A DNA stretch of 64,000 bases, taken from positions 1 to 64,000 of the forward strand of contig CALAJH010000029.1 of NCBI GenBank assembly GCA_937922655.1, given 5' to 3'. Source of the stretch: an uncultured Bacteroidia bacterium (GTDB lineage: Bacteria > Bacteroidota > Bacteroidia > J057 > CALAJH01). Under the pieces are notes generated by a model. The model was not told where the DNA came from and did not search any database. It was given only the letters and a program-made list of their open reading frames with translations. Shown in pieces: positions 5,454-64,000 of the stretch (within the stretch, counting starts at the first letter, position 1; each line of letters begins with the position of its first letter). Made by a program: the position numbers and the translations under genes.

Positions 5454-6935
5454 ATGAACGAACTCCATTTGTACAATTCGCTCAGCCGGAAAAAAGAGCG
5501 TTTCGAGCCGGTTCATCCGCCGTTTGTGGGCATGTACGTTTGTGGGCCGACGGTCTACGGCGACGGACATTTGGGCCATGCCCGCCCCGCCGTAACCTTC
5601 GACGTACTCTTTCGCTACCTCAAACATTTGGGTTACAAGGTGCGTTACGTGCGCAACGTTACCGACGTCGGCCACCTGGAAAACGACGCCGACGAAGGCG
5701 AGGACAAAATCGCCAAAAAAGCGCGGCTCGAGCAGGTTGAACCGATGGAGATTGCCCAGTTCTATACCGACCGTTACCACGCCGTCATGGACCGGCTCAA
5801 TTGTTTGCGCCCGTCCATCGAACCCCGGGCCACGGGCCATATCCCCGAACAAATCGAAATGATTAAAACGATTTTGGCCAACGGTTTCGCTTACGAAATC
5901 AACGGTTCGGTGTATTTCGATGTTCGGGCCTACGCCCAAAACTACCGTTACGGCGAACTTTCGGGACGCGAAAACATTGAGGAACTGCTGGCCGGTTCTC
6001 GGGAATTGGAGGGACAAAGCGAAAAAAAGCATCCGTCGGACTTTGCGCTTTGGAAAAAAGCGGGCCCCGAACACATCATGCAGTGGGATTCGCCGTGGGG
6101 CAGGGGATTTCCGGGCTGGCACATCGAATGTTCGGCCATGAGCGTGAAGTATTTGGGCGAATGGTGCGACATCCACGGCGGCGGCATGGACCTCAAATTT
6201 CCGCACCACGAGGCCGAAATCGCGCAAACCAACGCCTGCCTGCACCCCAAACCCGCCCTCAATGAAGCCAAATACTGGTTGCACAACAACATGGTAACCA
6301 TCAACGGCCAAAAAATGGGCAAATCCCTTGGTAATTTCATCACCCTCGACGAATTTTTCACCGGCAAACACCCACTCTTGGAACGCGCTTATTCGCCGAT
6401 GACCATTCGTTTTTTTATATTGCAATCGCACTACCGGAGTACGCTCGATTTTTCCAACGAGGCCTTGCAGGCGGCGGAAAAAGGTTTTCGGCGGCTGATG
6501 CACGCCGTGGCGCTGGCGCAAAGTCTTAGACCCGCACCCGTTTCAACGTTTGGCGTCCAAGACCTCAAACGCCGGCTTTACCACGCCCTCAACGACGACC
6601 TCAATACGGCGGTGTGTGTCGCCGAACTCTTTGAGGCCGCACGGCTTGTTCACGCCCTTGACCAAAAAACCGAAAAACTCAACGAAGAAGACCTTAACGA
6701 CTTCGTCGCCGTCCTGCGAACTTTTGTTTTCGACGTGCTTGGCCTCCAAAACGAAAACGCCGAAGACAAAAGCCGTTTGGACGCGGCGGTCAAAATTCTC
6801 ATCGACCTGCGCCACGCCGCCCGCAAAAACAAAGACTTCGCCACCTCCGACGCCATCCGCGACCGCCTCAAAAACGAGGCCCGCGTCGTTTTGCGGGACA
6901 CGCCCGAAGCCACCGTCTGGACCGACGCCGAATAG
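5454..6935 (+). CDS. cysS: cysteinyl-tRNA synthetase
   Basis: Cytoplasmic class I aminoacyl-tRNA synthetase that charges tRNA-Cys; 493 residues, normal for the family. The N-terminal zinc Cys is in [18 protein letters not shown] (Cys 30), with HLGH at 39-42 as the HIGH signature. The remaining zinc ligands are in GWHIECSAM and in HHEAE. The second signature is KMGKSLGN near residue 286 (KMSKS variant). The C-terminal anticodon-binding helical region ends in [20 protein letters not shown], typical of CysRS. The frame is open 324 bases upstream, but family alignment and the -7 element put the start at 5454. Confidence 0.97.
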
Positions 6936-7006
6936 TCGGGCCGGCATAAGTCCGGGCCCAAACCCTGCCTGTTTTTGAGCAAAGGCGGCCGTCCCGAACC
7001 CATCCA

Positions 7007-8284
7007 ATGTCATCGTCGAAAGAAACTTACACGCCGTCCCCACGCCCCGAGACGCTTTCGCGCCCGTTTCGCGTGGCCATGCTCAACCGCTACGACCGAC
7101 AAGGCGGGGCGGCTATCGCGGGCTTTCGTTTGGCCGAAGCTTTGTTGCAAGCCGGCGCCGACGTACGTTTATATGTACGCGGAAAAACCGTTGCCGACGA
7201 TTTTGTGCGCGACGTCGGCGGTTTTTCCGAAAAACTCGACCTTTTGCTCGAAAAAGTCGTCGTCGGATTGCACGACCGAAAGCCCGCGTGGAACTTCGGC
7301 TTCGGACTCATGAGCCGAGGCGTAAAATTTAACATCGAACCCGCCGACGTGGTTCACGTTCATTGGCCGCATCACGGTTTGTTGTCTTTGGAAGGATTAA
7401 GGCGTTTGCCGGGGCCCGTTGTATGGACGTTGCACGACATGTGGGCGCTTACGGGGGGGTGTCATTACGCGGGCGCCTGCGAGAAGTATCTTGTCCGTTG
7501 CGACGCCTGTCCCCAACTTCGTTCGCGTGCCGGCGATTTGGCCGCCCGTCAGTGGGAAAAAAAACGTCGGCTTTTTGAGGACAAACGCATAACGTTTGTT
7601 GCGTGTTCGCGGTGGTTGGCGGCCGAGGCGCGGCGTTCGGCGCTGTTGGCCGGGGCCGACGTTCGCTCCGTTGCGAACGCCATCGACGTCGACGTATTTT
7701 GTCCGGGCGACAAGGCCGCCGCTCGAAAAAAATTCGGTTTGCCGCCCGAGGCCTACGTGGCGCTTTTTGCCTCGGCCCGCACCGACGACCCCCGCAAAGG
7801 CTTTCATTATTTGGCCAAGGCGGCACGGGGCAAAGATTGCGTCGTGGCGTTGATGGGAGAAAACAAGTCCGCCCCGCCGCCCGGAACCGTTGCGTTGGGA
7901 AAAATATCGGGGGACGCGGCGCTTGCCGAAGCTTATCGCGCGGCCGACGTTCTCGTTGCCCCGTCGCTCGAAGACAATCTGCCCAACACCGTCATGGAAG
8001 CGGCGGCGTGCGGCGTAGCGTCGGTGGGTTTCGACGTTGGCGGCGTTCCCGAACTCATCGACGACGGAAAAACCGGCTTCGTCGTCGCGCCCGGAAGCGT
8101 CGAGGGCATTGCCGCCGCCTTGGACCGATTTTCCAACCCCGATTTGCGTCGTAGTTTTGGCGAAAACGCCCGAAAAAAAGTTCTCGACGAATTCGCCTAT
8201 GCCGTCGTTGCGGAAAAATACATGGACGTTTACCGTCACGCGGTGGAAAAACATCGGCGCTTGCCCGACAAACGGGACGATTGA
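7007..8284 (+). CDS. glycosyltransferase family 4 (WcaC-like)
   Basis: A 425-residue cytoplasmic retaining GT-B glycosyltransferase, likely for exopolysaccharide or surface glycan assembly. The N-terminal Rossmann half has VAMLNRYDRQGGAAIAGFRLAEAL and the acceptor-side motif DVVHVHWPHH, followed by VWTLHDMWALTGGCHYAG and a Cys-rich insertion (four Cys between about residues 150 and 170) common in the WcaC-type subgroup. The C-terminal GT4 half has the donor motif SLEDNLPNTVMEAAACG near 325, with the two Glu of the E-X7-E signature, and GGVPELIDDGKTGFVV. It follows cysS by 71 bases and precedes metG by 134. Acceptor and sugar cannot be read from sequence. Confidence 0.85.
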   Translation: MSSSKETYTPSPRPETLSRPFRVAMLNRYDRQGGAAIAGFRLAEALLQAGADVRLYVRGKTVADDFVRDVGGFSEKLDLLLEKVVVGLHDRKPAWNFGFGLMSRGVKFNIEPADVVHVHWPHHGLLSLEGLRRLPGPVVWTLHDMWALTGGCHYAGACEKYLVRCDACPQLRSRAGDLAARQWEKKRRLFEDKRITFVACSRWLAAEARRSALLAGADVRSVANAIDVDVFCPGDKAAARKKFGLPPEAYVALFASARTDDPRKGFHYLAKAARGKDCVVALMGENKSAPPPGTVALGKISGDAALAEAYRAADVLVAPSLEDNLPNTVMEAAACGVASVGFDVGGVPELIDDGKTGFVVAPGSVEGIAAALDRFSNPDLRRSFGENARKKVLDEFAYAVVAEKYMDVYRHAVEKHRRLPDKRDD

Positions 8285-8405
8285 CAAACGTATCGCGGGA
8301 CGGGCGCCGCAATCGGTTTGCGAGGACGTTGATTTCCGCGGCTTGGACTTGCGTTCGGGGACGATATTTTTGGGGTCTTTGGATGCGTCAAGGCGGGTAA
8401 AGGCG

Positions 8406-8413
8406 TAAATTTG
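8406..8413 (+). promoter_or_regulatory. -7 promoter element (TAAATTTG) five bases before metG ATG
   Basis: TAAATTTG-CGGCC-ATG (ATG at 8419). A TTTG 24 bases further upstream (within GTCTTTGGATG) is a possible -33 element with long spacing. The geometry predicts a leaderless or nearly leaderless transcript. Confidence 0.6.
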
Positions 8414-8418
8414 CGGCC

Positions 8419-10473
8419 ATGCGATATATGATTACGGCGGCCTTGCCCTACGCCAACGGCCCGTTGCACATCGGTCATTTGGCGGGCGCTTTTTTGCCCG
8501 CCGACATTTACGCCCGTTATCGGCGGCTGGTCGGCGACGACGTGCTTTTCGTTTGCGGTTCGGACGAACACGGCGTGGCCGTCGCCATTCAGGCTCGAAA
8601 AGAAGGCGTTACCCCCCGACAACTCGTCGACCGTTATCATCCGTTGTTTGAACGTTTGTTTCGGGAATTCGACCTTTCGACCGACATTTATTATCGTACT
8701 TCGGAGGCGTTGCACCACCAAACGGCGCAAGAGTTCTTTTTGCGTTTTTACGAAACGGGACAATTGATTGAACAGACGACCGAACAGTTCTACGACCCCG
8801 AGGCCGAACTTTTTTTGCCCGACCGTTACGTTGTCGGCACGTGTCCGCATTGCGGCAACGACCGTGCGTACGGCGACCAATGCGAAAAATGCGGTTCTTC
8901 GCTTACGCCGCAGGAGTTGATTTCGCCGCGTTCGGCGCTGACGGGCAAAGTCCCCGAACTTCGCCCGACCACCCACTTTTTTCTGCCCTTGGACCGTTGG
9001 CAGGAGCGCATGGAAAAATACATTCTTGAAGAGCATCGGGATTGGAAACCGAACGTTTTGGGACAATGCCGTTCGTGGTTGCAACAAGGGCTTGCGCCCC
9101 GCGCCATCACCCGGGATATGGATTGGGGGGTTGCCGTTCCGTTGGATTCGGCCCGAGGCAAAGTGCTTTACGTATGGTTCGACGCGCCCATCGGCTATAT
9201 TTCCGCCAGCAAGGCGTGGGCGCAACGCCGCGCCCAAACCCGTCCCGACGCCTCGCCCGACGACTGGAAAGCCTATTGGACGGATTCGACCATCGTTCAT
9301 TTTATTGGTAAGGACAACATCGTTTTCCACTGCGTGGTTTTTCCCGCCATGCTCATGGGTCACGGGGAATTTCGCGCCCCCGACTACGTCCCGGCCAACG
9401 AATTTCTCAATCTCGAAGGCGAAAAAATTTCCACCTCGCGCAACCGCGCCGTTTGGTTGCACGAATACCTGCAAGATTTTCCGGGCAAATCGGACGTTCT
9501 TCGTTACGTGCTCACGGCCATCATGCCGGAAACCAAAGACGCGGACTTTTCATGGAAAGACTTTCAAGCCCGCAACAACAACGAACTCGTCGCCATCGTC
9601 GGCAACTTTGTGCATCGGGTACTGACGCTGATACAAAAATATTACGGGGGCAGGGTTCCGTCGCCGGGCGTATTGGAGCCGGGGGACGAAAAAATATTGG
9701 CGGCCGTGGGTGAATCGGCGCGGGGGATAGGGGAGGCGTTGGAAAAGTTCAGGTTCAAGGACGCGTTGGCCGCCGCCGTCCAACTTGCCCGCGACGGCAA
9801 TAAATATTTGACCGAAAACGAGCCGTGGCATCGAATCAAAACCGACCCCGAACGGGTCAAGACCGTGTTGTTTTCGGGGCTTCAGGCGGTGGCGGGCTTG
9901 GGGGTGGTATTGGAACCGTTTTTGCCGCAAAGCGCGGCTAAAATCCGTCGTCTTGTCGGCATGGAAAGCGTTGCGTGGGCGACGGCGCAACAAACGCCGC
10001 TCGTCGGCGCCGGTACGCAACTGCCCGAGCCCGAACTGCTTTTTGAAAAAATCGAGGATGCGGCCGTCGAGGCGCAAATCGCCAAACTCCCTTTGGCCGT
10101 TGGCGTTGCGTCGGAGGCTTTGGCGCCCGCGGCCGAGGCCCCGAAGCCCGACGTCGCTTTCGAACAGTTTGCATTGACCGACTTGCGCGTCGGGCGTATT
10201 CTCAAGGCCGAGCGCGTTAAGGGTGCGGACAAACTTTTGCGTTTGGAGGTGGATTTTGGTTTTGAACGGCGAACGATAGTTTCGGGCATTGCGGCGTACC
10301 ATACGCCCGAGGAGCTGACGAACAAAAACGCGGCGTTCGTCGTCAATTTGCCGGCGCGCAAGCTTCGCGGCGTTGAAAGCCGGGGCATGCTATTGACGGT
10401 CGAAGGCGCCGACGGTACGCTTCGGGCGCTGTGGGCGCCGGACGAAGCGCCGCCGGGCGCCAAAATCGCCTAA
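8419..10473 (+). CDS. metG: methionyl-tRNA synthetase with C-terminal tRNA-binding domain
   Basis: Charges initiator and elongator tRNA-Met; 684 residues, the long form. HIGH is at 17-20 (PLHIGHLAG). The zinc knuckle is CPHCGNDRAYGDQCEKCG near 140-160. The KMSKS region reads GEKISTSRNRAVW (KISTS near 336-340), an accepted variant. Residues about 580-684 are an EMAPII/Trbp111-type OB-fold tRNA-binding domain (DLRVGRILKAERV...RGMLL), which dimerises and helps bind tRNA. The linker is Ala/Pro-rich. The stop codon overlaps the last codon of the convergent GT2 gene (10470-10473). Confidence 0.97.
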   Translation: MRYMITAALPYANGPLHIGHLAGAFLPADIYARYRRLVGDDVLFVCGSDEHGVAVAIQARKEGVTPRQLVDRYHPLFERLFREFDLSTDIYYRTSEALHHQTAQEFFLRFYETGQLIEQTTEQFYDPEAELFLPDRYVVGTCPHCGNDRAYGDQCEKCGSSLTPQELISPRSALTGKVPELRPTTHFFLPLDRWQERMEKYILEEHRDWKPNVLGQCRSWLQQGLAPRAITRDMDWGVAVPLDSARGKVLYVWFDAPIGYISASKAWAQRRAQTRPDASPDDWKAYWTDSTIVHFIGKDNIVFHCVVFPAMLMGHGEFRAPDYVPANEFLNLEGEKISTSRNRAVWLHEYLQDFPGKSDVLRYVLTAIMPETKDADFSWKDFQARNNNELVAIVGNFVHRVLTLIQKYYGGRVPSPGVLEPGDEKILAAVGESARGIGEALEKFRFKDALAAAVQLARDGNKYLTENEPWHRIKTDPERVKTVLFSGLQAVAGLGVVLEPFLPQSAAKIRRLVGMESVAWATAQQTPLVGAGTQLPEPELLFEKIEDAAVEAQIAKLPLAVGVASEALAPAAEAPKPDVAFEQFALTDLRVGRILKAERVKGADKLLRLEVDFGFERRTIVSGIAAYHTPEELTNKNAAFVVNLPARKLRGVESRGMLLTVEGADGTLRALWAPDEAPPGAKIA

Positions 10474-11201
10474 CGCCGCCAATCGGCGAACCACGACGAT
10501 ATTTTGAGGTTCAAGACCCCAAAAACGGCTTCGCGTACGATTTTTCCCGACATTTTCGACGTACCGCGCGTACGGTCGGTGAATATTATCGGCACCTCCT
10601 TGATTTTAAAGCCGTATTTCCACGCCTTGAACTTCATTTCGATTTGAAAGGCGTAACCGACGAACTTGACGGGTTTTTTAAGCAGGGTTTGGAGGGTTTG
10701 GGCGCGGTAGCATTTGAACCCCGCCGTTGCGTCGCGAACGCCCATGCCCGTAATCAAGCGCACGTAAGCGGAGGCGAACCAACTGAGCAAAACCCGGCTC
10801 ATGGGCCAATTGACGACGTTTACGCCGTTGATGTACCTTGAACCGATGGCGAGGTCGTAATTTTCGTCTTTGCAGGCGGCTAAAAGCCGGGGCAAATCGG
10901 CGGGATTGTGGCTGAAATCCGCGTCCATCTCAAAGATGTATTGATATCCGCGTTCCAAGCCCCAACGAAAGCCGTGCAAATACGCCGTTCCCAACCCCAA
11001 TTTTCCCGAACGCTCCTCGATAAACAAACGGCCGGGGTATTGTTCAAAATGTTCTTTGACGATTTGGGCGGTGCCGTCGGGCGAGCCGTCGTCGATGACC
11101 AACAAGTGGAGGTTGCCCGGTTGGGCCATGACCGCCGTTATCATGTCGGCAATATTTTCGCGTTCGTTGTAGGTCGGTATTAAAACCAAACTTTCGGGCA
11201 T
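10470..11201 (-). CDS. polyprenol-phosphate mannosyltransferase (dolichol-P-mannose synthase-like, GT2)
   Basis: A 243-residue GT-A family 2 enzyme with no C-terminal membrane segments, like bacterial Dpm1/Ppm1 catalytic domains. Motifs: LVLIPTYNERENI at the start, LLVIDDGSPDGTA, and FEMDADFSHNP (DxD-type metal site near residue 95). IGSRYINGV and the acceptor loop around FTDRTRGTSKMS are also typical. It would transfer mannose or glucose from a nucleotide sugar to polyprenyl phosphate for use by GT-C enzymes such as the candidate at 411-1853. The ATG at 11201 was chosen because it starts the conserved domain; an upstream TTG in frame adds 42 unconserved residues. Confidence 0.9.
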   Translation of the reverse strand: MPESLVLIPTYNERENIADMITAVMAQPGNLHLLVIDDGSPDGTAQIVKEHFEQYPGRLFIEERSGKLGLGTAYLHGFRWGLERGYQYIFEMDADFSHNPADLPRLLAACKDENYDLAIGSRYINGVNVVNWPMSRVLLSWFASAYVRLITGMGVRDATAGFKCYRAQTLQTLLKKPVKFVGYAFQIEMKFKAWKYGFKIKEVPIIFTDRTRGTSKMSGKIVREAVFGVLNLKISSWFADWRR

Positions 11202-11226
11202 GAGTAGGGCGTAGGGTGGCAGCGCG

Positions 11227-11234
11227 CAAATATA
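11227..11234 (-). promoter_or_regulatory. -7 promoter element (TATATTTG) for the GT2 gene
   Basis: Read on the minus strand, TATATTTG fits TAnnTTTG and lies 25 bases before the ATG at 11201. Confidence 0.45.
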
Positions 11235-11416
11235 AAGCAAATGCACCAAAAACACGACGCGTCGCGCAAATTGGCGCGTTTTGTTTAGGGAAGCTTCGTC
11301 GTTTTGCGTTGTCGAGGTTTCCGACAAATTTTGAAACGAACGTTTTTTTTCGTTTTATGCTCAAAAGATCGGGATAGAAGCGTTCGCCGGGCGGCCCGCC
11401 GCCGGAAAGCCGCCGA

Positions 11417-13342
11417 CTACCGAATTAAAAGGCGGTGGTGGTATTTTCGGGTGGGGGTGGAAACTTCGGCAATGTACATGCCGGGAGGAAGGTGGGCGTC
11501 GCCGGCGTTTTCGGTGTGTTGCCAAACGCCGGCGTTGCGAACGGAATGGCGCGTTTGTCCGACGATTTCTCCCGTGGTCGCGATGTAACGGATGTTTACC
11601 CAGCCCGGCGTTTCGACAAAAGTGCGGAAGGTGAATCGTCCGTCGGTCGTCGGGTTGGGGTATACCATACTCCAACCGGGTTCGTCGGCAATGAACACCT
11701 CCACGACGGGGGAATAAGCAACTTTTCCGTTGAAGTCCACGATTTTAAGACGGTAGCGGGCGGCGCCGATAAGGGGGGTAGGGTCGAATTTGGCGTATTG
11801 GCTTTCTTTTTCGTATTCGTTGTTGGGTGCGGTTCTGGCGGTTTCGACAAAGCGTTCGGAGTCGTCGGCGCGTTCGAGGATGTAAACGGCCAAATTCTTT
11901 TCGCGACAGGTCGTCCATTGGACGTGTACGGCGTTGTTTTCGGTGCGCGTGGCGGAAAAGGCGCGGATTTCGCAACCCATCGGCACGTCGCCTTCAAAGA
12001 GGGCGACGGTTTTGAGGCCGGTTAAGTCTGTGATGCGGAAAGCGCAAAGACCGCCCGTGCGCCGTTCTCCCGCCGTACCGACGCGTCCGTTTTCGCATTC
12101 CAAAAGAGCGGAAAATTCGGGCAGGGCCGAGGGCAGGTAGGCGGTCAATTCGCATGCCTCGCTTGTTTGAATTTCGTAGGCTCCCGAAACGGACGGACGC
12201 GAATAATACACGCCGCCCACGAAGAGGTCGCCGGAGCAGGTTTTGTCGCCGTATTTGACGCCAACGTTTGCGCCGGCTTTTTTTACATGTACCTCGCAAA
12301 ATCGGTTTTCGTCCGCCGTACCGACGGGAAAAGCCAGCGTCATATCGTCGTGGGGGAAAATGCGGTTCAACGTTCCGACGACACGTCCCCATTGGTTGGG
12401 TTCCGTGGGTTCGTTCGGGCTTTTTTCCGCAACCGTCAAATCGGCGTAGAGCACCGATTCTTTGGATAAGGAGAATTCTTTTGTACGAACGGGGTATAAC
12501 AAGGTTACATGGTCTTTTCGAGCGACGGAAAGCCGGGCGAGCGGGTTTTCGGCGACGATGGGAAGGTTGGGGCGGGAAATGTCGATGTGTCCCAAGGTTG
12601 GGGAAAGCAGCGCGGAGCCGCCGCGCCGCGGTACGTCGGTAACGATGGAGGTTCCGCGTACGCCGCCGACCGCGACTTGGGCTTCGGGTCCGGAAAGGGT
12701 AATTTTTTCGTCGCCGTTGCGGTGCAGGCCGCCGTTGAAGGTCAAGATTGTTTTTACGCTCAAATCGCCGCCGTTGAGGTGCAACACGCCGTTAATCGCG
12801 ACGCCGTCAAAATGGACGTCGGCGTTTTCGAGCGTCAGATGCCAAAAATGAAAATTGCCGGAGGGGAAAACGACGGGGCCGTTTCCGTAGAAACGCACTT
12901 CGCCGCGCCACGCGGTCGGGACGGCGGGAAGGGCGGGGTTTTGGAGGCTGAGCGTGCCGCAGCGGCCTTGGGCGTCGGCTACGATTTCGCCGAATTGCGG
13001 AAGTTTATAGGGGGAAAAGACGTTTTTGAGGTCTACGCTTCCGGCCAAGACGGTCGTTTTTGCGGAAAAGGACGCGGCGGCGGCAAATTCGAGGCTTGCG
13101 CCGGGCGCCACTTCGCATCGTTCGACCTCGACCGCGCCGCCGTACACCGTCACTTTACCCCCCGTCGCGACGGTCAGCGTTTCCGCCGAAAGCGTACCCG
13201 CCTCCAGCTTAAGCGTGGACGTTACCGTGATTTGCGGGGCGCTTAGGTTCGTTGAAACCCGCGTCGGTTGGGAGACGGTAAGGTTTTGCGCCCGGACAAC
13301 GGAAAATGTTGTCGCAACGGCAAGCAGACTTCGCAGGACCAT
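11417..13342 (-). CDS. large secreted beta-rich protein with T9SS type A sorting domain
   Basis: About 641 residues. The ATG at 13342 gives a signal peptide (MVLRSLLAVATTFSVVRAQ). The body is beta-rich: repeated LEAGTLSAETLTV, LHLNGGDLSV and similar short strands suggest a right-handed beta-helix or repetitive beta-solenoid. The last ~90 residues are a type A T9SS C-terminal domain beginning WSMVYPNPTTDGRFTF and ending MYIAEVSTPTRKYHHRLLIR, preceded by a fibronectin-like module (VHVQWTTCREKNLAVYILER). It should be exported by Sec, moved across the outer membrane by the T9SS and attached or released. No enzymatic motif is seen. The TTG three codons upstream is rejected. Confidence 0.8.
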   Translation of the reverse strand: MVLRSLLAVATTFSVVRAQNLTVSQPTRVSTNLSAPQITVTSTLKLEAGTLSAETLTVATGGKVTVYGGAVEVERCEVAPGASLEFAAAASFSAKTTVLAGSVDLKNVFSPYKLPQFGEIVADAQGRCGTLSLQNPALPAVPTAWRGEVRFYGNGPVVFPSGNFHFWHLTLENADVHFDGVAINGVLHLNGGDLSVKTILTFNGGLHRNGDEKITLSGPEAQVAVGGVRGTSIVTDVPRRGGSALLSPTLGHIDISRPNLPIVAENPLARLSVARKDHVTLLYPVRTKEFSLSKESVLYADLTVAEKSPNEPTEPNQWGRVVGTLNRIFPHDDMTLAFPVGTADENRFCEVHVKKAGANVGVKYGDKTCSGDLFVGGVYYSRPSVSGAYEIQTSEACELTAYLPSALPEFSALLECENGRVGTAGERRTGGLCAFRITDLTGLKTVALFEGDVPMGCEIRAFSATRTENNAVHVQWTTCREKNLAVYILERADDSERFVETARTAPNNEYEKESQYAKFDPTPLIGAARYRLKIVDFNGKVAYSPVVEVFIADEPGWSMVYPNPTTDGRFTFRTFVETPGWVNIRYIATTGEIVGQTRHSVRNAGVWQHTENAGDAHLPPGMYIAEVSTPTRKYHHRLLIR

Positions 13343-13614
13343 AAAATGCAATTAGGGTTCGGCGCAAAATTAAACATTTTTCCCCGGTATACAAACAATT
13401 CGGTTGAAAAAAGTATTTGCGGACGCAAAGCAAGCGTCAAAAATAAGTTTAATCTCGGGGCGGTGGTTTTACCGACGTCTAGGGTCGAAAAAAATACGTA
13501 GGCATGCGGGTTGGTGCGAATTTGTGCGGCCTTTTTAAATAACGAAAATTTAAGGAGGGGCGTGCAACCTTTGCGGCAAAATTTCGTATCATTGCGCAAA
13601 ATTTGGATACGAAT

Positions 13615-14334
13615 ATGGAAAATCAATTTGGAGTTCCCGTACAACGGGGGAGTGCGTTGGAGGCGCATTTGACGTCGTTCGTACAAAAGGTGTTCGTCAT
13701 CATGGGTGCGGGCCTTGCGATAACGGGGCTTGCCGCCTATCTGCTGGGAACCTATTTTTTAGGCAACGAGGAAGCTTTGCGTTCGGTGTTGATGTCGCCG
13801 GTGCGGTGGGTGCTTGTGTTTTTGCCGTTTGTATTCGTTTTGGTGTTGGGCGCGGGCATCAATCGTTTGAGTTACGCCGCCGCCACACTGATATTCGGGG
13901 CTTACTCCCTGACGATGGGTATTAGTTTGTCGTTTATTTTCGTCGCTTTTACGACCACGTCAATATTTTCGACGTTCGTCGTTACCTCGGGGATGTTTAT
14001 CGCCACGGGAGTCTACGGCATGGTTACCAAACGCGACCTGAGCCGTTTGGGAAGCATTTTGATGATGGCCCTTTTCGGCTTGATTATCGCCACGTTGGTC
14101 AATATTTTCTTGGCTTCGAACGCCATGTCGCTCATCATCACTTTGGGCGGCGTAATTATTTTTTGCGGGCTGACGGCGTGGGATATGCAACGCATCAAAG
14201 AAATGGGCTTGCAGGTCGGCGCCGACGACAGCGAGGAGGTCAAAAAAATGGCCGTCATCGGGGCTTTGAATCTTTACCTTAATTTTATCAACCTCTTTCT
14301 TTTCTTGTTGCGTTTGCTGGGCGACCGTCGCTAA
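13615..14334 (+). CDS. Bax inhibitor-1 / YccA (UPF0005) family membrane protein
   Basis: A 239-residue inner-membrane protein with about seven hydrophobic segments, matching the TMBIM/YbhL/YccA family of pH-sensitive calcium-leak channels. Family marks include MGAGLAITGLAAYLLG, TLIFGAYSLTMGISLSFIF and, near the C-terminus, FCGLTAWDMQRIKEMG, followed by ALNLYLNFINLFLFLLRLLG, a strong signature. The ATG at 13615 is chosen over a TTG four codons upstream. Downstream is a strong hairpin (14408-14443). It is monocistronic. Confidence 0.92.
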   Translation: MENQFGVPVQRGSALEAHLTSFVQKVFVIMGAGLAITGLAAYLLGTYFLGNEEALRSVLMSPVRWVLVFLPFVFVLVLGAGINRLSYAAATLIFGAYSLTMGISLSFIFVAFTTTSIFSTFVVTSGMFIATGVYGMVTKRDLSRLGSILMMALFGLIIATLVNIFLASNAMSLIITLGGVIIFCGLTAWDMQRIKEMGLQVGADDSEEVKKMAVIGALNLYLNFINLFLFLLRLLGDRR

Positions 14335-14407
14335 ACGCTTTTGCAACGGATTTTACGAGGGGCCGCCGTTCCCTCGCGGTGGCGCCCGTTTTGGGGGCTC
14401 GCCGTGC

Positions 14408-14443
14408 AACCCGTTGGTCCTTCCGACAAAGGACCAACGGGTT
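14408..14443 (+). terminator. 15-bp-stem hairpin downstream of the Bax inhibitor gene
   Basis: AACCCGTTGGTCCTT (14408-14422) pairs perfectly with 14429-14443 across a six-base loop and is followed by TTGATTTTGT. It sits 74 bases after the stop. Good terminator geometry, with an interrupted T-tract. Confidence 0.7.
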
Positions 14444-14461
14444 TTGATTTTGTGGGCTTTT

Positions 14462-14486
14462 GCTTTCCGGCCAACGGCCGGAAAGC
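14462..14486. repeat. perfect 11-bp inverted repeat with 3-base loop
   Basis: GCTTTCCGGCC-AAC-GGCCGGAAAGC. It lies 18 bases after the first hairpin and has no T-tract. It may be a second stabilising hairpin or part of a processed 3' end. Confidence 0.55.
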
Positions 14487-14600
14487 CTTGGGCCGCGTCC
14501 AATTTGGATGGCGCCGCTTTTGGGTCTTTGGGACGCCCGGCCGAACGATGCAACGGTCAAGCAATATATGCGTTTTCTGCGGACTTCACGATTTTCGACG

Positions 14601-14608
14601 TATCTTTG
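14601..14608 (+). promoter_or_regulatory. -7 promoter element (TATCTTTG) upstream of hslV
   Basis: Exact TAnnTTTG match, 60 bases before the hslV ATG, so unlike cysS and metG this gene would have a normal leader. Confidence 0.45.
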
Positions 14609-14668
14609 CGCGCCGGAACGGGCGTGGCCGATTGATTTTTTTCACGTCCGACGGCGAAAGTTATTCAT

Positions 14669-15223
14669 ATGTCAAAACCGATATTTCATTCGACGACGGT
14701 CGTGGGGGTGATACACAACGGGGTTGCGGCCATGGGCGCGGACGGCCAAGCGACGTTGGGTTCGACGGTCATGAAAAGCAACGTGCGCAAAATCCGCAAG
14801 GTGGGCGGCGGCAAAGTGTTGGCGGGCTTTGCGGGCGCTACCGCCGACGCTTTCACCCTCCTTGAACGTTTCGACGAAAAATTAAACCAATACGGCCAAA
14901 ACATGAAACGCGCCGCCGTCGAACTGGCCCGCGATTGGCGTACCGACCGCTTTCTCCGCCGGCTCGAAGCCATGCTTGTGGTCATGAACGAGACCGACGG
15001 CATGGTGATTTCAGGTACGGGCGACGTCCTCGAACCCGACCACAAACTTTTGTGTATCGGTTCGGGGGGAATGTACGCCCAAGCCGCCGCCCTCACCCTG
15101 CTCAAACACGCCCCCCATCTGACGGCCGAACAAATCGTACGCGAAGCCCTCGGCGTCGCCGCCGACATCTGCATCTACACCAACCACAACTTCGATATCC
15201 AAACCCTCGGCAATCCCGCATGA
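14669..15223 (+). CDS. hslV: ATP-dependent protease peptidase subunit HslV
   Basis: Proteasome-like Ntn-hydrolase subunit that forms the double-hexamer core of HslUV; 184 residues. The N-terminus MSKPIFHSTTVVGV carries the threonine that becomes the nucleophile after removal of the first eight residues (TTVVGV), and GVAAMGADGQATLG and KVGGGKVLAGFAGATADAF are family signatures. The C-terminus ends ICIYTNHNFDIQTL. hslU is not adjacent; the next gene is a thioesterase whose ATG overlaps the hslV stop (ATGA at 15220-15223). Confidence 0.96.
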   Translation: MSKPIFHSTTVVGVIHNGVAAMGADGQATLGSTVMKSNVRKIRKVGGGKVLAGFAGATADAFTLLERFDEKLNQYGQNMKRAAVELARDWRTDRFLRRLEAMLVVMNETDGMVISGTGDVLEPDHKLLCIGSGGMYAQAAALTLLKHAPHLTAEQIVREALGVAADICIYTNHNFDIQTLGNPA

Positions 15224-15660
15224 ACGAACCCGTTTTCAAGCATTACACGCCTATCAAGGTGCGTTACGCCGACCTCGACACCATGCGCCACGTCAACAAC
15301 GCCGCCTACATGTCCTATACCGAGGAAGCACGCATCGCCTACTGTCGCGAGGTCTTGGGTTGGGACGGCGACCTCGAACGCCTCGACATGCTCTTGGCAC
15401 GTTTTGAAATCGACTACCTGACCCCCGTTTTTCTCTTCGACGCGATAGGCATTTACACCCGGTGTTCGCGCTTGGGCAACAAAAGTTTCGACTTTGAATA
15501 CCGTTTCGTCAGGCACGAAGCCGACGGCAAAGAAACCTTGGTCGCGCGGGGAAAAACCGTACTGGTGGCCTTCAGCATGCGAGAAAACCGCCCCATCCCC
15601 TTGCCCGACGCCTTTCGCAAAGCTTTCAACGACTACGAACCCTCGCCGATAATCCAATAA
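15220..15660 (+). CDS. acyl-CoA thioesterase, 4-hydroxybenzoyl-CoA thioesterase-like hotdog family
   Basis: A 146-residue single hotdog domain. The signature VRYADLDTMRHVNNAAYMSYTEEAR (Asp near 18 and 20, followed by HVNN) is that of the YbgC/4HBT subgroup, which hydrolyses acyl-CoA or acyl-ACP thioesters. The start overlaps the hslV stop by four bases, so the two are translationally coupled. The in-frame extension further upstream runs through hslV and is a shadow. Substrate unknown. Confidence 0.9.
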   Translation: MNEPVFKHYTPIKVRYADLDTMRHVNNAAYMSYTEEARIAYCREVLGWDGDLERLDMLLARFEIDYLTPVFLFDAIGIYTRCSRLGNKSFDFEYRFVRHEADGKETLVARGKTVLVAFSMRENRPIPLPDAFRKAFNDYEPSPIIQ

Positions 15661-15801
15661 GCGCCCACGCTCGCACGGGCCGACGAATCGTCGGAAAATA
15701 TCCGTCAAGCCGACAACGACGCGGCGCCGTTGCACGGTAAAGTCTCGGCGTAACTTTTCCGTGCTTGGTTTTTATTTTTCCGGAAAAAAATAAATTTTTT
15801 T

Positions 15802-15809
15802 TATTTTTG
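15802..15809 (+). promoter_or_regulatory. -7 promoter element (TATTTTTG) for the NERD/TPR-CSD operon
   Basis: Exact TAnnTTTG match in a very AT-rich stretch, 48 bases before the ATG at 15858. An ATG at 15811 immediately follows but opens only an out-of-frame 78-codon ORF. Confidence 0.5.
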
Positions 15810-15857
15810 CATGCTAATATTTCAACCGATAATCCATTATTTTAATTATTTTTTTCC

Positions 15858-17258
15858 ATGGCATTTCGCGCATATTTGGCCCACAAAGCCGAACACACCC
15901 ATGAAAACACCTATTTCCAAGAATTTTACCGCAACCTCAAAGCTTATTACGAAGACCGCGACGAAGACGCGGTTATCGTCGCCAATCCCATTATCGACGG
16001 CGCCCGTCCCGACGCCCTGTTCATCAAAAACGAGGCTATATGCGTAATCGATTTTAAAGATTATTCCGGAGAGTTTCATTTTGACGCCAACGACGTTTGG
16101 AGACTTAAAAACACCCATCCCCCCGTGATTATCAAGGGGGGAAGCAAGAAAAATCCTTACGACCAGATTGACCTTTTTCGTAAAAAAATGGAAGCGTCTT
16201 TGAAGTCCGTTTTTCCGGCCCGTAAAAGTTTGTTGGTCAATGGAATGGTGCTTTTTCATGGCGGAAAGATTAAGGTAACCAATACGCTTCCCAAACATTT
16301 GAAGTGGTTTCACATTACGGACAAGTTCGATATGGTGAATAGGCTCGCGGCCTTGTCCACGCCGGACTTATATCTTACCGAGGATGATATAAACGGTTTT
16401 TTGAAAAAACACGGCATTCGCGAAGTATATAAGCTTCCCAGCGAGATGATTGCGGAAAAGGAGGCTCAAAAAACGCTTCCCAAAGACGCAACCGTTTGCG
16501 AACCCCAACGGGAGGCGTCGGCATCGAAAGCCGTTTTCGCGCCCGGTTTGAAAACGGCGCTTGCCAAAGACGAGGATGCCATCGCACAAGCCAAAATCAA
16601 CCTCAAAACCTACATAGACCCGGCGGCCCAATTGACGTTTTGGAACGAGGGTTCGGCCAAGTTTTCCGAGTATGCCGACGAACCGATTTATTATCCCCAA
16701 GACGTTGAAATTCCGTCGGAAAAATTTGGTTACGGACCTTTCAACACCGACAAACGCCCCGAGTTATTGATGTTTTATTACGCGGTGCGTTCGGTGGTAC
16801 CCGCAAACGTGGATATCGACGTGGTTTCGGGTCAATACGTCGAAAGATACCGTTTTACCGATGCCACAAACGGAGAAAGCGTTGTCATCGCTTTTCATTA
16901 CAACAAAGATTACAAGTTTTTTCGCAACAAGGCGCAATGTTCGAATCCGGCTTCGGCGTTGGCCCAAGACGTTTTAACGTTGTTGTCGGGTTACGGACCG
17001 CAAAAAATCAAGAGTTTTGTGGGTTTTTCTTTGCGTCCGTGGCTGGAGTTGGTGTCGGAAAACATGGAAAAACATTACGGCGCCGGGGTGGTGGAGGCCA
17101 AAGCCATTCATTTTGGCGCGAATTTTAAACTGGCACGGGGCAAAGAGTCGTTGACCTGCCAAGCTTATCACAACGGACGCTTGAAAATTACCTCGGTGCT
17201 GATACAAGAATATACATCCCATGCGTTGTTTAACGATTTTAAGAAACTACTGGTATGA
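15858..17258 (+). CDS. NERD-domain (nuclease-related) protein, first gene of a two-gene cassette
   Basis: 466 residues. The N-terminal ~170 residues match the NERD fold (Nuclease-Related Domain, PD-(D/E)XK-like): ANTYF-type N-terminal helix, DAVIVANPIIDGARPDALFI (Asp 52), AICVIDFKDYSG (Asp 65, Lys 67) and a downstream W plus NPYDQIDLFRKKM. A linker rich in Lys/Glu/Ala (about 200-250) separates it from a C-terminal region of about 210 residues (AKINLKTYIDPAAQL... to ...YTSHALFNDFKKLLV) that I do not recognise. No helicase or kinase motif is seen. It overlaps the TPR-CSD gene by four bases (ATGA, 17255-17258), so the two products are probably made together. Nuclease activity is inference from the fold. 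Confidence 0.8.
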   Translation: MAFRAYLAHKAEHTHENTYFQEFYRNLKAYYEDRDEDAVIVANPIIDGARPDALFIKNEAICVIDFKDYSGEFHFDANDVWRLKNTHPPVIIKGGSKKNPYDQIDLFRKKMEASLKSVFPARKSLLVNGMVLFHGGKIKVTNTLPKHLKWFHITDKFDMVNRLAALSTPDLYLTEDDINGFLKKHGIREVYKLPSEMIAEKEAQKTLPKDATVCEPQREASASKAVFAPGLKTALAKDEDAIAQAKINLKTYIDPAAQLTFWNEGSAKFSEYADEPIYYPQDVEIPSEKFGYGPFNTDKRPELLMFYYAVRSVVPANVDIDVVSGQYVERYRFTDATNGESVVIAFHYNKDYKFFRNKAQCSNPASALAQDVLTLLSGYGPQKIKSFVGFSLRPWLELVSENMEKHYGAGVVEAKAIHFGANFKLARGKESLTCQAYHNGRLKITSVLIQEYTSHALFNDFKKLLV

Positions 17259-24689: not shown

Positions 24690-24957
24690 GGGTTTGGCAA
24701 CGGTTTTTCCAAAAAAAAAATTATTCGCCGTACCGCGCGGCACGGGGTGTTTGTCGGATGCCGCTATCGTGATTCGCCCCCCATAGCCCGAACGTGCGGC
24801 GTCGTCTTCTTTGAAAACCTTTGCCGTTCGTAGGCTTTCATACGTTTGATTTTGGTTTTTTGTCGGTCGGCGGCGAAATCTTGGGACAAGGGGGGCGAAT
24901 TTAAATGCTTCGGGGGCGGTGAACGCTTGCCGATTTTGCGTAAATTGCGCCCCGAAA

Positions 24958-25407
24958 ATGCGTTGGGCTATCGTGATTTGGGCGACGTTTTTCGCCGTCG
25001 GCTGTTCGGACTCCGGACGATTGGACGTCGTCAAAGATTTTGACGACGAGCAATGGGTTTACGCCGATTCCATAAGCATAAATTACTCGCCGTCGTCCTC
25101 GCAACCCCGCAACATGATTTTATGTTACGGCCTTACGGATGAATATCCGTTCCGCAACCTGACGCTCAAAACCCGGACGTTGGCGCCCAACGGGGCCGTT
25201 GCCCGTTCGATGCCCATTTTCGTCGTTTCCGACGCGCAGGGACGTTGGAAATCCGAACAACAATGGGACGGAACTTACGTTTTTTGCGACACCGTATTGA
25301 AAAGCGTGGTTTTCGACTCGACTGGACCATACGTTTTCGACTTCAAACAATACCATCGAACGGATACGTTGAAAGGGGTCAAATTTTTTCGGGTAATCAT
25401 CGAATGA
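24958..25407 (+). CDS. gldH: gliding motility lipoprotein GldH
   Basis: 149 residues. Lipoprotein signal peptide with Cys at 16 (FAVGC). Mature region shows the GldH pattern: W.Y.D...I.Y (EQWVYADSISINY), then YPFRNLTLKTRTLAPNG, VSDAQGRWKSEQQWDGTY and, at the end, GPYVFDFKQYHRTDTLKGVKFFRVIIE. GldH is a membrane lipoprotein required for gliding in Flavobacterium. TAAATTG lies ten bases before the ATG. It starts a likely operon with the GNAT (ATGA overlap) and the cytochrome-like gene; gldG and gldF are 1.7 kb away on the other strand. Confidence 0.85.
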   Translation: MRWAIVIWATFFAVGCSDSGRLDVVKDFDDEQWVYADSISINYSPSSSQPRNMILCYGLTDEYPFRNLTLKTRTLAPNGAVARSMPIFVVSDAQGRWKSEQQWDGTYVFCDTVLKSVVFDSTGPYVFDFKQYHRTDTLKGVKFFRVIIE

Positions 25408-25835
25408 TACGGTTGTCGGCTTTGGACCGGTTCAACTGGGAGGAGGTGGCGGCCTTGAAGGTTGCCGAAGGGCAGGAAGCATTTATTCCGCCCAACGTCT
25501 ATTCAATAGCGCAGTCGCGCTTCGAGCCTTCGGAGTTGTACGGCGTTTACGACGACGAGAGGCCCGTCGGTTTTTTGATGATTTGTGTTTGGGCCAAAAT
25601 TCATTGGATTACGCGCATCATGATCGCCGCCGACCAACAAGGCAAGGGTTACGGCGCCCGCGCGATTGACGAGACGATAAAGATGCTCAAACGTCGCGCC
25701 GACTGTCGTGAAATCCGTGCCTCGATTCATCATAAGAACGTTCGCGCGCGGCATCTTTTTGAGTCGGCGGGTTTTACCTTCATGGGCGATTCCGACCCAA
25801 TCGAACTTTTTTTTCACCTTGTCGTTAAAAGGTAA
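25404..25835 (+). CDS. GNAT family N-acetyltransferase
   Basis: 143 residues, whole GNAT fold. The acetyl-CoA pyrophosphate loop is QQGKGYG (Q/RxxGxG) after the strand ITRIMIAAD; the C-terminal part has EIRASIHHKNVRARHLFESAGFTFMGD, with the usual N..A..LYE..GF pattern, similar to polyamine (SpeG/BltD-type) acetyltransferases. The ATG overlaps the gldH stop by four bases. Substrate unknown. Confidence 0.85.
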   Translation: MIRLSALDRFNWEEVAALKVAEGQEAFIPPNVYSIAQSRFEPSELYGVYDDERPVGFLMICVWAKIHWITRIMIAADQQGKGYGARAIDETIKMLKRRADCREIRASIHHKNVRARHLFESAGFTFMGDSDPIELFFHLVVKR

Positions 25836-61665: not shown

Positions 61666-62190
61666 ATGATAGTAAGATATCAAAAGTTGGGGGAACTGGC
61701 GCCGCGGTTGTCGGAAATGGCATGGCGTGCGTATTCCGGCGGTACGTCCGCTCCGGGTGCATTGAGCCTAGACGAACTGTTTCGACGTTTGCAGTTCGTC
61801 AAAATGCTGGTTTCCCTGTGGTCGCACGCCTGTTTTGCCGACGGCGAGTTGGCTCCGCCCGAGGAAATGTCCGTCGGCGAACTCATGGAGTTGTTTTTCG
61901 GCGGCGAACGTTCGCTTTTTCCTCGCCAATTGGTGGATAGAGACGCGATTTTCGGCGAATTGACCGAGGCTTTCCTCGACCCCTATCCTTTGGACGACGT
62001 ATTGGCCTACGGCGCCGAATGCCCCGAAACCGCACAACTGTTTTTTGAGGAGGCCTGCTGTATTGTTGCTTCGGACGGCGTATGGCACGACGCCGAAGAT
62101 CGTTTTCTCGACCGTTTGGCCGCACGTCTGGGTATTTCCACCCCCCTTCGTTTTGAAATTCAGCAGCGTTATCGCCATCGTAAATTATGA
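61666..62190 (+). CDS. TerB-like / tellurite-resistance-family helical protein
   Basis: 174 residues, helical. Two acidic helix-turn motifs are TerB-like: ACFADGELAPPEEMSVGELMELFFG (near 60-85) and IVASDGVWHDAEDRFLDRLAARLGI (near 133-160); the D-G-x-x-x-x-x-E spacing suggests two metal-binding sites. Function of stand-alone TerB-like proteins is unclear. The next gene's ATG overlaps its stop by four bases. Confidence 0.65.
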   Translation: MIVRYQKLGELAPRLSEMAWRAYSGGTSAPGALSLDELFRRLQFVKMLVSLWSHACFADGELAPPEEMSVGELMELFFGGERSLFPRQLVDRDAIFGELTEAFLDPYPLDDVLAYGAECPETAQLFFEEACCIVASDGVWHDAEDRFLDRLAARLGISTPLRFEIQQRYRHRKL

Positions 62191-63086
62191 TGAAAATATT
62201 ATTGACGGTATTGACGCTGACGGCCGGCGCCCATGCCGTGATGGCACAATTTTATTCTTTGCAAACGCTTTCGGCCCCTTACCATCCACTCGAAAACCCC
62301 ACGCCCCTCCTCGACGAACAAGGCCGGCTTACGTCCGAAACCCGCCTCCCGATTTACGACTTCTTTTTTCCTCTCTTTGGCGACACCATGACCTTCATGA
62401 TGCTTACGCCCCATTACATCGGTTTTGAACGCCTATGGGAAATGGGCGCCGTCGCCCTCGCAATGGATGTTCAAATCTTGAACAACACGGAAATTTCCTA
62501 CGTCAAAGAAGGCCCGCAACGTGCCCAAACCCTTACCGTCCAATGGAAAAACGCCGGTTTTGGCAACGACATTTCCAAATCCGACTTTTTCGACGCGCAA
62601 CTGACGCTTGACGAGCAGACGGGCTGTATCGAAATTCATTTCGGAGCCAACCGCGTCTCCTACCCCGAACGATATCTGGGGCTCAACGTCTACCGCCATT
62701 CGAGTTTCGACGAAACGCCGACGCACGCCGCAGGCCTCTCGGGCGTTCCCGACGCCGCGTATTTGGCCGATGGCGGACATTTGTGGGGTGTGGCGCAGTC
62801 GGGTACCAAATATCAAATTTGTCCCTCGGGTTATTTGCGTCGTTCGCACGACCAAGAGCCGCAGGCCCGCGTCGCCGTCTACCCCAACCCCGCGACCGAC
62901 GTCTTGAACGTTCAAGCGCCCGACGGGCCGCTTGAATTTACTCTTTACGATGCGCAAGGAAGACGCGTCGTCCGAACCGAATCCCGCCAAATCGACCTCG
63001 CCCCGACTCCCCGGGGATTGTATTATTTGGTCGTTGAAGAGCACACGACGGGGCGGCGCTTTATCCAAAGCGTTATTAAGCAATGA
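62187..63086 (+). CDS. secreted protein with T9SS type A sorting domain
   Basis: 299 residues. Signal peptide MMKILLTVLTLTAGAHAVMAQ. A ~200-residue beta-rich domain (DFFFPLFGDTMTFMML, DAQLTLDEQTGCIEIHFGANRV) leads to the type A sorting domain at about 225-299 (VAVYPNPATDVLNVQAPDGPLEFTLYDAQGRRVVR ... RGLYYLVVEEHTTGRRFIQSVIKQ). Overlaps the TerB-like stop by four bases. No enzymatic motif. Confidence 0.85.
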   Translation: MMKILLTVLTLTAGAHAVMAQFYSLQTLSAPYHPLENPTPLLDEQGRLTSETRLPIYDFFFPLFGDTMTFMMLTPHYIGFERLWEMGAVALAMDVQILNNTEISYVKEGPQRAQTLTVQWKNAGFGNDISKSDFFDAQLTLDEQTGCIEIHFGANRVSYPERYLGLNVYRHSSFDETPTHAAGLSGVPDAAYLADGGHLWGVAQSGTKYQICPSGYLRRSHDQEPQARVAVYPNPATDVLNVQAPDGPLEFTLYDAQGRRVVRTESRQIDLAPTPRGLYYLVVEEHTTGRRFIQSVIKQ

Positions 63087-63103: not shown

Positions 63104-64000
63104 ATGAAATTTTTTACTCTCGTCTTATTTTTTTTCGTGGCATCGTCGGGGCTTTGGGCGCAATCCTCAACTTCCGCCCGTGTCGCGTACGAAAACTTCG
63201 TTCGGCAATATCTTCATCGTTCCGACAAAACGTCCGTCGACGGACAAAAATACATCATTCCCGTAGTCGTCCACGTCGTCTACTCCGAACCTGAAAATCG
63301 GGTGAGCGAGGCACAGGTGCGTTCGGAATTCGAACATTTACGTAAATTGTATCGTCGCATTCCGGGTACTTACGGTTTTGGCGCGGGCGCCGATACGCGC
63401 ATCGAATTTGAACTTGCGACCGTCGCGCCCGACGGCAGTCCCACCGAAGGCATTACCTATACTCAAAACGCCGAATACGCCGACCTTCAGGTGGGCCCCG
63501 ACCCCAATGCCGACTACCCCGCCTCCGAAAACGTCGCTTTAAAAACCCTCGTCGGTTGGGACAGAAACAAATATCTTAATATTTGGGTGGTGGAAAAAAT
63601 CACCGTGCTTTCCGATGCGGCCGAGCTGGCGGGTTACGCGCAGTTTCCGTGGGAGGAGGCGACGACGACCGACGGGGTCGTGATTGCCGCCGACCGTTTT
63701 GGAAGCAGCGCCGCGCCGGGCTCGAAAGCTTTGTATCGTTACGACTACACCACGGCTAAAAATCTTGGGCATTGGCTCGGCCTGCTCGACGTCTATACCT
63801 CCGGCGGATGCACCCCGGACGACTGCTCGCAAACCGGCGACCTCGTTTGTGATACGCCCCCGTCTTACAGTCGGCCCAAACGCACCGACGAACGCATCAA
63901 CAGTTGCAATCTCGAAGCCGGCGGCGACCGCCCCGATTTGGCCCGCAACATCATGGAAAACTGCTTCCAACCCATGGCCCCCAACCAATTCACCGCCGGT
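63104..64000 (+). CDS. M43 (pappalysin-like) metalloprotease-fold protein with destroyed active site, 3' truncated by window
   Basis: At least 299 residues; the end lies beyond the window. Signal peptide MKFFTLVLFFFVASSGLWAQ. Family marks: YIIPVVVHVVYSEPENRVSEAQV at the N-terminus, RIEFELATVAPDGSPTEGITYTQ, KYLNIWVVE, LAGYAQFPWEEATTTDGVVIAADRFG, LVCDTPP and the Met-turn NIMENCF near the end. The zinc motif, HEVGHWLGLYH in active members, reads KNLGHWLGLLD (219-229): first His to Lys 219, catalytic Glu to Asn 220, His 223 kept and third His to Asp 229. It therefore looks like a pseudoprotease with an intact fold, and a single-base sequencing error cannot explain three changes. It follows the T9SS cargo at 62187 by 17 bases, so may be part of the same transcript; a C-terminal T9SS domain is likely but not visible. 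Confidence 0.85.
   Translation, partial: MKFFTLVLFFFVASSGLWAQSSTSARVAYENFVRQYLHRSDKTSVDGQKYIIPVVVHVVYSEPENRVSEAQVRSEFEHLRKLYRRIPGTYGFGAGADTRIEFELATVAPDGSPTEGITYTQNAEYADLQVGPDPNADYPASENVALKTLVGWDRNKYLNIWVVEKITVLSDAAELAGYAQFPWEEATTTDGVVIAADRFGSSAAPGSKALYRYDYTTAKNLGHWLGLLDVYTSGGCTPDDCSQTGDLVCDTPPSYSRPKRTDERINSCNLEAGGDRPDLARNIMENCFQPMAPNQFTAG

Follow-up and report, generated by a model that had tools for sequence, protein, structure and literature searches.

The window, a stretch of 64,000 nucleotides of DNA analyzed as a whole, ends within a gene for a homolog of the M43 (pappalysin) metalloproteases that lacks the residues responsible for zinc binding and catalysis and retains the scaffold of the family. 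The product is probably a secreted, non-cutting M43 homolog that leaves the cell through the type IX secretion system and acts by binding, a role that, together with inactivity and surface location, we infer from sequence. The open reading frame, on the forward strand of contig G000:C29 (63083-65341), encodes 752 aa from the first ATG, with no internal stop. It crosses the end of the window, which holds the 63104-64000 part, and the remainder was read from the contig. The ATG at 63104 is the likely start, given that, judged by eye, it yields a better signal peptide than the ATG at 63083. The relevant features are as follows:

62187-63086, forward strand: 299-aa orphan protein with a signal-like N-terminus and a type IX sorting tail, upstream of the dead M43 gene
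63104-64000 in the window and on to 65341 (L009:3105-5342), forward strand: dead M43 (pappalysin) gene, with a second in-frame ATG at 63083
63104-63163, forward strand: signal peptide MKFFTLVLFFFVASSGLWAQ, cleavage site set by eye from the sequence
63164-63253, forward strand: short pro-region lacking the cysteine-switch Cys found in 55/55 homologs
63263-63283, forward strand: VVVHVVY, in frame in the M43 gene
63572-63589, forward strand: YLNIWV, in frame in the M43 gene
63629-63649, forward strand: AGYAQFP, in frame in the M43 gene
63671-63685, forward strand: DGVVI, in frame in the M43 gene
63758-63790, forward strand: former zinc motif KNLGHWLGLLD (residues 226-236), H230 retained
63947-63961, forward strand: Met-turn NIMEN (residues 289-293), Met retained, Tyr replaced by Asn

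The M43 fold signatures named in the initial annotation were all found, in one frame and on the forward strand. The Pfam profile Peptidase_M43 matches residues 159-315 (29.8 bits, or 32.8 in another run, against a cut-off of 23), and phmmer aligns ulilysin with the protein at 3.3e-25, ulilysin and mirolysin being the only PDB relatives at E <= 0.01. By these profile and sequence matches, the M43 domain is genuine, not a chance similarity. Residues 346-407 are PKD-like (23.3 bits, slightly below the PKD cut-off of 23.5), and residues 671-746 match Por_Secre_tail (PF18962; 35.6 bits, cut-off 27); the type IX sorting domain TIGR04183 (NCBIfam; C-terminal type A) is also recognized (30.1 bits, cut-off 23). 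A partial match to TIGR03952 (NCBIfam) at 48.9 bits is well below the cut-off of 208.1. The type IX sortase PorU belongs to the C25 peptidase family, and C25 peptidases are present in the same genome.

The replacement of HExxHxxGxxH by KNLGHWLGLLD, reported previously for this DNA, is borne out at the codon level (AAA AAT CTT GGG CAT TGG CTC GGC CTG CTC GAC), and the phmmer alignment places the query stretch aknlghwlglld on the ulilysin zinc motif. We aligned the protein with 55 distinct homologs, namely, the M43 domains found at loci in 60 relative genomes, in a search of the order and in one Flavobacteriales contig; duplicates and the query were removed before alignment, and the C45 paralog described below was included. 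Positions 226, 227, 230 and 236 are H, E, H and H in 55/55 homologs and K, N, H and D in the query; the earlier count of a lost catalytic Glu and two lost zinc His is correct, with one His (H230) remaining. The H236D change alone would not prove loss of zinc because Asp serves as the third ligand in other zincins, with the motif HExxHxxGxxD (PMC3890501, in part), and the damage to the site is attributable to H226K and E227N. Metal binding or hydrolase activity through a rebuilt site involving H230, D236, K226 or other residues is very unlikely: although one zinc His is kept, the Asp is of a kind tolerated elsewhere, and Lys226 and Asp236 might face each other at the former zinc place, the first ligand and the general base are gone, as is the counterpart of the Tyr that is suggested to stabilize the reaction intermediate in mirolysin, and the 752 aa contain no other metal motif, either HExxH or HxxEH.

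The losses extend beyond the motif. In the alignment, a single residue is shared by at least 90% of the 55 homologs at 37 columns; 32 of these are unchanged in the query, including Cys275, Asp253, Asp257 and the Met of the Met-turn, and five are lost, so that the proposal of a pseudoprotease, with catalytic residues lost and scaffold kept, is supported. The five are the pro-region Cys, H226, E227 and H236 (55/55 homologs each) and Y293 (53/55). Their counterparts in mirolysin, as given in the relevant part of PMC6949598 and matched here by the order of motifs, not by direct alignment to mirolysin, are Cys23, which binds zinc in the zymogen; His224 and His234 for H226 and H236; Glu225, the general base; and Tyr286, which is suggested to stabilize the reaction intermediate. 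Judged from these counterparts, all five losses belong to zinc binding, catalysis or latency. The Tyr two residues after the Met is present in 53/55 homologs and in 150/152 domains with the HEHH combination, compared to Asn293 in the query. The losses of the cysteine-switch Cys and the Met-turn Tyr, which the initial annotation did not include, strengthen the case for a probably inactive homolog.

Five losses are not extreme per se: the active homolog L077 differs at 5/38 columns in a leave-one-out comparison, with HExxH intact and its five changes scattered. What is unusual in the query is the location of the losses, not their number. The chance that all five would fall among the seven active-site and switch columns of the 37 is 21/435,897 by hand arithmetic, or 56/435,897 when the Met-turn Asn is included, for a seven-column set that was taken from part of PMC6949598 and chosen after the data had been seen. 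The position of mirolysin Asp289 (S1' specificity) is Gln296 in the query and Asn in the active C45 paralog; Gln296 is not tied to the dead state because the active paralog also lacks Asp there. With Asn for the S1' Asp of mirolysin, the C45 paralog may have a cleavage preference other than Arg/Lys.

AlphaFold2 modeling of the part within the window (280 aa; alignment of 54 rows from the window and related loci) yielded a pLDDT of 75.5 and a pTM of 0.80; model residues 194-205 form a helix that spans the former zinc helix. Foldseek ranks 1-11 are ulilysin and mirolysin, and the best PDB match is proulilysin (E 9.2e-18, TM 0.70, rmsd 5.3). The active-site helix and the metzincin fold are predicted to be intact in this model, which stops at the window end with the last helix incomplete and is poorly predicted at residues 244-254, ahead of the Met-turn.

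The closest relative of the protein is a paralog from the same genome (G000:C45:6627-8807, or 6711-8780 by its narrower coordinates), 48% identical over almost the full length, with the conserved blocks in the same order and with HEAGHWLGLIH, NIMDY and the CG switch intact. It is unlinked to the dead gene, being located on another contig with no shared neighborhood by inspection. The pro-region of the dead protein is shorter than that of the paralog, which carries the DACGTRDGAYFSPG stretch there. The paralog motif is encoded by CAC GAG GCG GGT CAT TGG CTG GGT TTG ATT CAT; compared to it, the altered motif codons in the query are CAC>AAA, GAG>AAT and CAT>GAC, and the Met-turn codon changed by one substitution, TAC>AAC. 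The two genes are separated by five or more substitutions in the three motif codons (six differing bases by plain count) and by at least six in the four codons. No assembly error is evident: these are multi-base, in-frame substitutions at separate sites within a clean 752-aa frame, with no stop and no frameshift, and the distance of at least five substitutions between the three codons and those of the paralog argues against a simple error. Although the genome is a draft in 84 contigs, it is given as 100% complete and 0.74% contaminated, and a sequencing or assembly error is the least probable of the explanations considered, close to negligible.

In a tree from which the motif and Met-turn columns were left out, the query groups with the C45 paralog as its sister (SH-aLRT 90), with branches of 0.69 for the query and 0.76 for the paralog. 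Relative-rate comparisons over the catalytic domain with five outgroups gave ratios of query-unique to paralog-unique changes of 33:23, 31:26, 31:24, 26:25 and 31:27; the query changes are slightly more numerous in all five comparisons, and none is significant (p 0.23 to 1.00). By the Nei-Gojobori method, dN/dS between the two amounts to 0.39 in the catalytic domain and 0.41 over the full gene, rough values that average both branches at a dS of ~1.2, near saturation. Taken together, the rates and dN/dS speak for continued constraint, as far as one genome can indicate; if inactivation was recent, little could be concluded from the preserved scaffold and the normal rate. We consider it quite unlikely that this is a recently inactivated gene heading for decay. 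The gene is known from a single genome, in which nine further M43 copies could compensate for it, and H226K, E227N, H236D, Y293N and the loss of the Cys could all have come after a single inactivating change. However, the 752-aa frame and sorting tail are intact, the other 32 conserved columns are kept and no acceleration is seen; furthermore, at least six substitutions in four codons along with the loss of the switch segment imply that the protein has been dead for some time, those columns being otherwise unchanged.

The genome contains ten M43 matches, on contigs C1, C8, C16, C29, C30, C33, C44, C45 and C66, by impression a rich set for 3.58 Mb. Eight of the other nine have an intact HExxH, and the ninth, on C44, reads HEFGHCMGLYH; further dead copies were suspected from pattern misses, and their sequences all show HExxH. 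No ortholog with the same replacement was found in the 60 relatives, the 22 genomes of the order or further genome contigs, and no relative closer than the in-genome paralog was found among the 22 genomes of the order. A degenerate non-HE pattern gave five matches in 395 genomes of the class, of which only the present gene is an M43; this pattern is narrow, requiring GHWLGL and missing first-position codons that start with C and second-position codons that start with G. The 201 loci yielded 162 distinct M43 domains, five of which were dropped for gaps; the 157 with all four positions readable comprise 152 HEHH, one HEHN (L192), the present gene and three others, in a sample biased to intact motifs (one scan pattern was HExGH) in which near-identical contigs may count separately. 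The HEHN domain, from the same order (G017:C253, about 24928-25794), reads HEVGHYLGLFN, with Asn for the third His and Asp for the Met-turn Tyr.

The 299-aa gene upstream ends 17 bp ahead of the ATG at 63104 and overlaps that at 63083, making it a possible operon partner of the dead M43 gene. Wide matches were obtained for its sorting tail only, with weak, partial ones elsewhere in the protein among the 22 genomes of the order. A single PDB match (E 0.13) was taken as chance.

We propose that the dead gene originated as one of the ten M43 copies in the genome. The active site probably was lost first and the cysteine switch afterwards, the Cys being pointless once there was no zinc for it to bind, and the metzincin scaffold has been retained. 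The type IX secretion system would export the protein, which would then be kept on the cell surface or released from it. There, it would not bind a catalytic zinc in the normal manner or activate water and, consequently, would not cut, and the M43 fold, together with the PKD-like domain and the C-terminal domain, could serve to bind a partner protein or peptide. Candidates for the target are a peptide resembling a substrate, a foreign protein and an active relative within M43.

A second dead lineage (L111, L123, L144 and, later, L203) was found on four IMG/VR contigs, which contain the following pairs of genes:

L200, 5001-11278: dead and active M43 pair
L201, 5001-11286: dead and active M43 pair
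L202, about 10001-15869: dead and active M43 pair
L203, about 10001-16059: dead and active M43 pair

Instead of HExxHxxGxxH, these dead proteins carry EAVATYLGLYQ, EAVGTYLGLYQ, EAVGSYLGLYQ and HIGSYLGLYQ (preceded by E), the L203 motif being read from an alignment by eye; zinc His, Glu and the Met-turn Tyr are replaced in 4/4, with NYMDD in place of MDY at the Met-turn. Pairwise identity among the four is 50-89% within the first 430 aa, and the M43 domain of the L200 dead gene is above the Pfam cut-off. In 4/4, the downstream neighbor, on the same strand and about 60-75 bp away, is an M43 gene with an intact HE[VI]GHF[LM]GL[YF]H motif; in the L200 pair, the sole one scanned with Pfam, both genes contain Fib_succ_major domains. 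The cysteine switch is uninformative for this lineage, in which the active partners seem to lack any pro-region. A DNA methyltransferase and a guanylate kinase of phage type (phrog_1815), encoded nearby, agree with a possible phage origin of the contigs. A comparison of L200 with L201 gave dN/dS values of 0.089 in the catalytic region of the dead gene, 0.148 across that gene as a whole and 0.085 in its active partner, which places the dead region under strong purifying selection. Thus, selection can maintain a dead M43 domain no less firmly than an active one, and the second lineage provides a precedent for such retention.

These pairs also bear on a different explanation, under which the present protein would be dedicated to an active M43, most naturally the C45 paralog, as its partner or regulator, binding enzyme, substrate or inhibitor and modulating cutting. 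Its closest relative is indeed an active copy of the same layout in the same genome, and the second lineage has the active gene directly after the dead one on all four contigs; nevertheless, the active copy lies apart, among different neighbors, and we regard this explanation as unlikely. It is conceivable, if doubtful, that pappalysins repeatedly yield non-cutting forms that are kept by selection as partners of active M43 proteases. If so, the present gene would be one case, from a bacterium, and the phage-like pairs would represent a two-protein protease system, of which we found no description for pappalysins in the open-licence PMC literature searched. The same literature contained no paper on an M43 pseudoprotease; inactive homologs of the M43 family may be listed in MEROPS, which is outside that scope. 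Animals are well known to have inactive metzincins, whereas the literature searched showed none among pappalysins. With residues for zinc binding, catalysis and latency lost jointly and the scaffold kept, the present gene, probably a secreted binding protein, is a clean case, handy for the question of what a protease fold does without cutting, and also a warning that the M43 profile alone would call the dead protein a protease. The dead and active pairs from phage-like contigs are a natural setting for asking whether dead M43s serve an active partner.

Among known systems, mirolysin and ulilysin (PDB 6r7u, 6r7v, 6r7w, 2cki and 8cdb; PMC6949598, in part) share with the dead protein the fold, the Met of the Met-turn, the Asp/Cys scaffold and secretion with a short pro-region. 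Unlike them, the dead protein lacks two of the three zinc His, the Glu, the Met-turn Tyr and the cysteine-switch Cys, and has an additional PKD-like domain and a type IX tail. By profile and fold, it is an M43 homolog; by the defining motif, it is not an M43 peptidase. The inactive M12 ADAM homologs (for example, unc-71 QSIGHLLGLEHD) likewise keep the scaffold and Met-turn with the zinc and general-base residues replaced and are described as acting through interactions (PMC11266112, in part), but they belong to another metzincin family and are membrane proteins of animals; neither M43 nor pappalysin occurs in the main text of that review. Both the second dead lineage and the present gene are M43 homologs with zinc His, Glu and the Met-turn Tyr replaced, whereas the replacements in the former are different (EA..T/S..Q and HI..S..Q), the tail is Fib_succ_major (L200), and an active M43 partner is adjacent in all four cases. 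Inactive homologs are already known in protease families, and the interest of the present findings is in the clean joint loss and in the paired second lineage.
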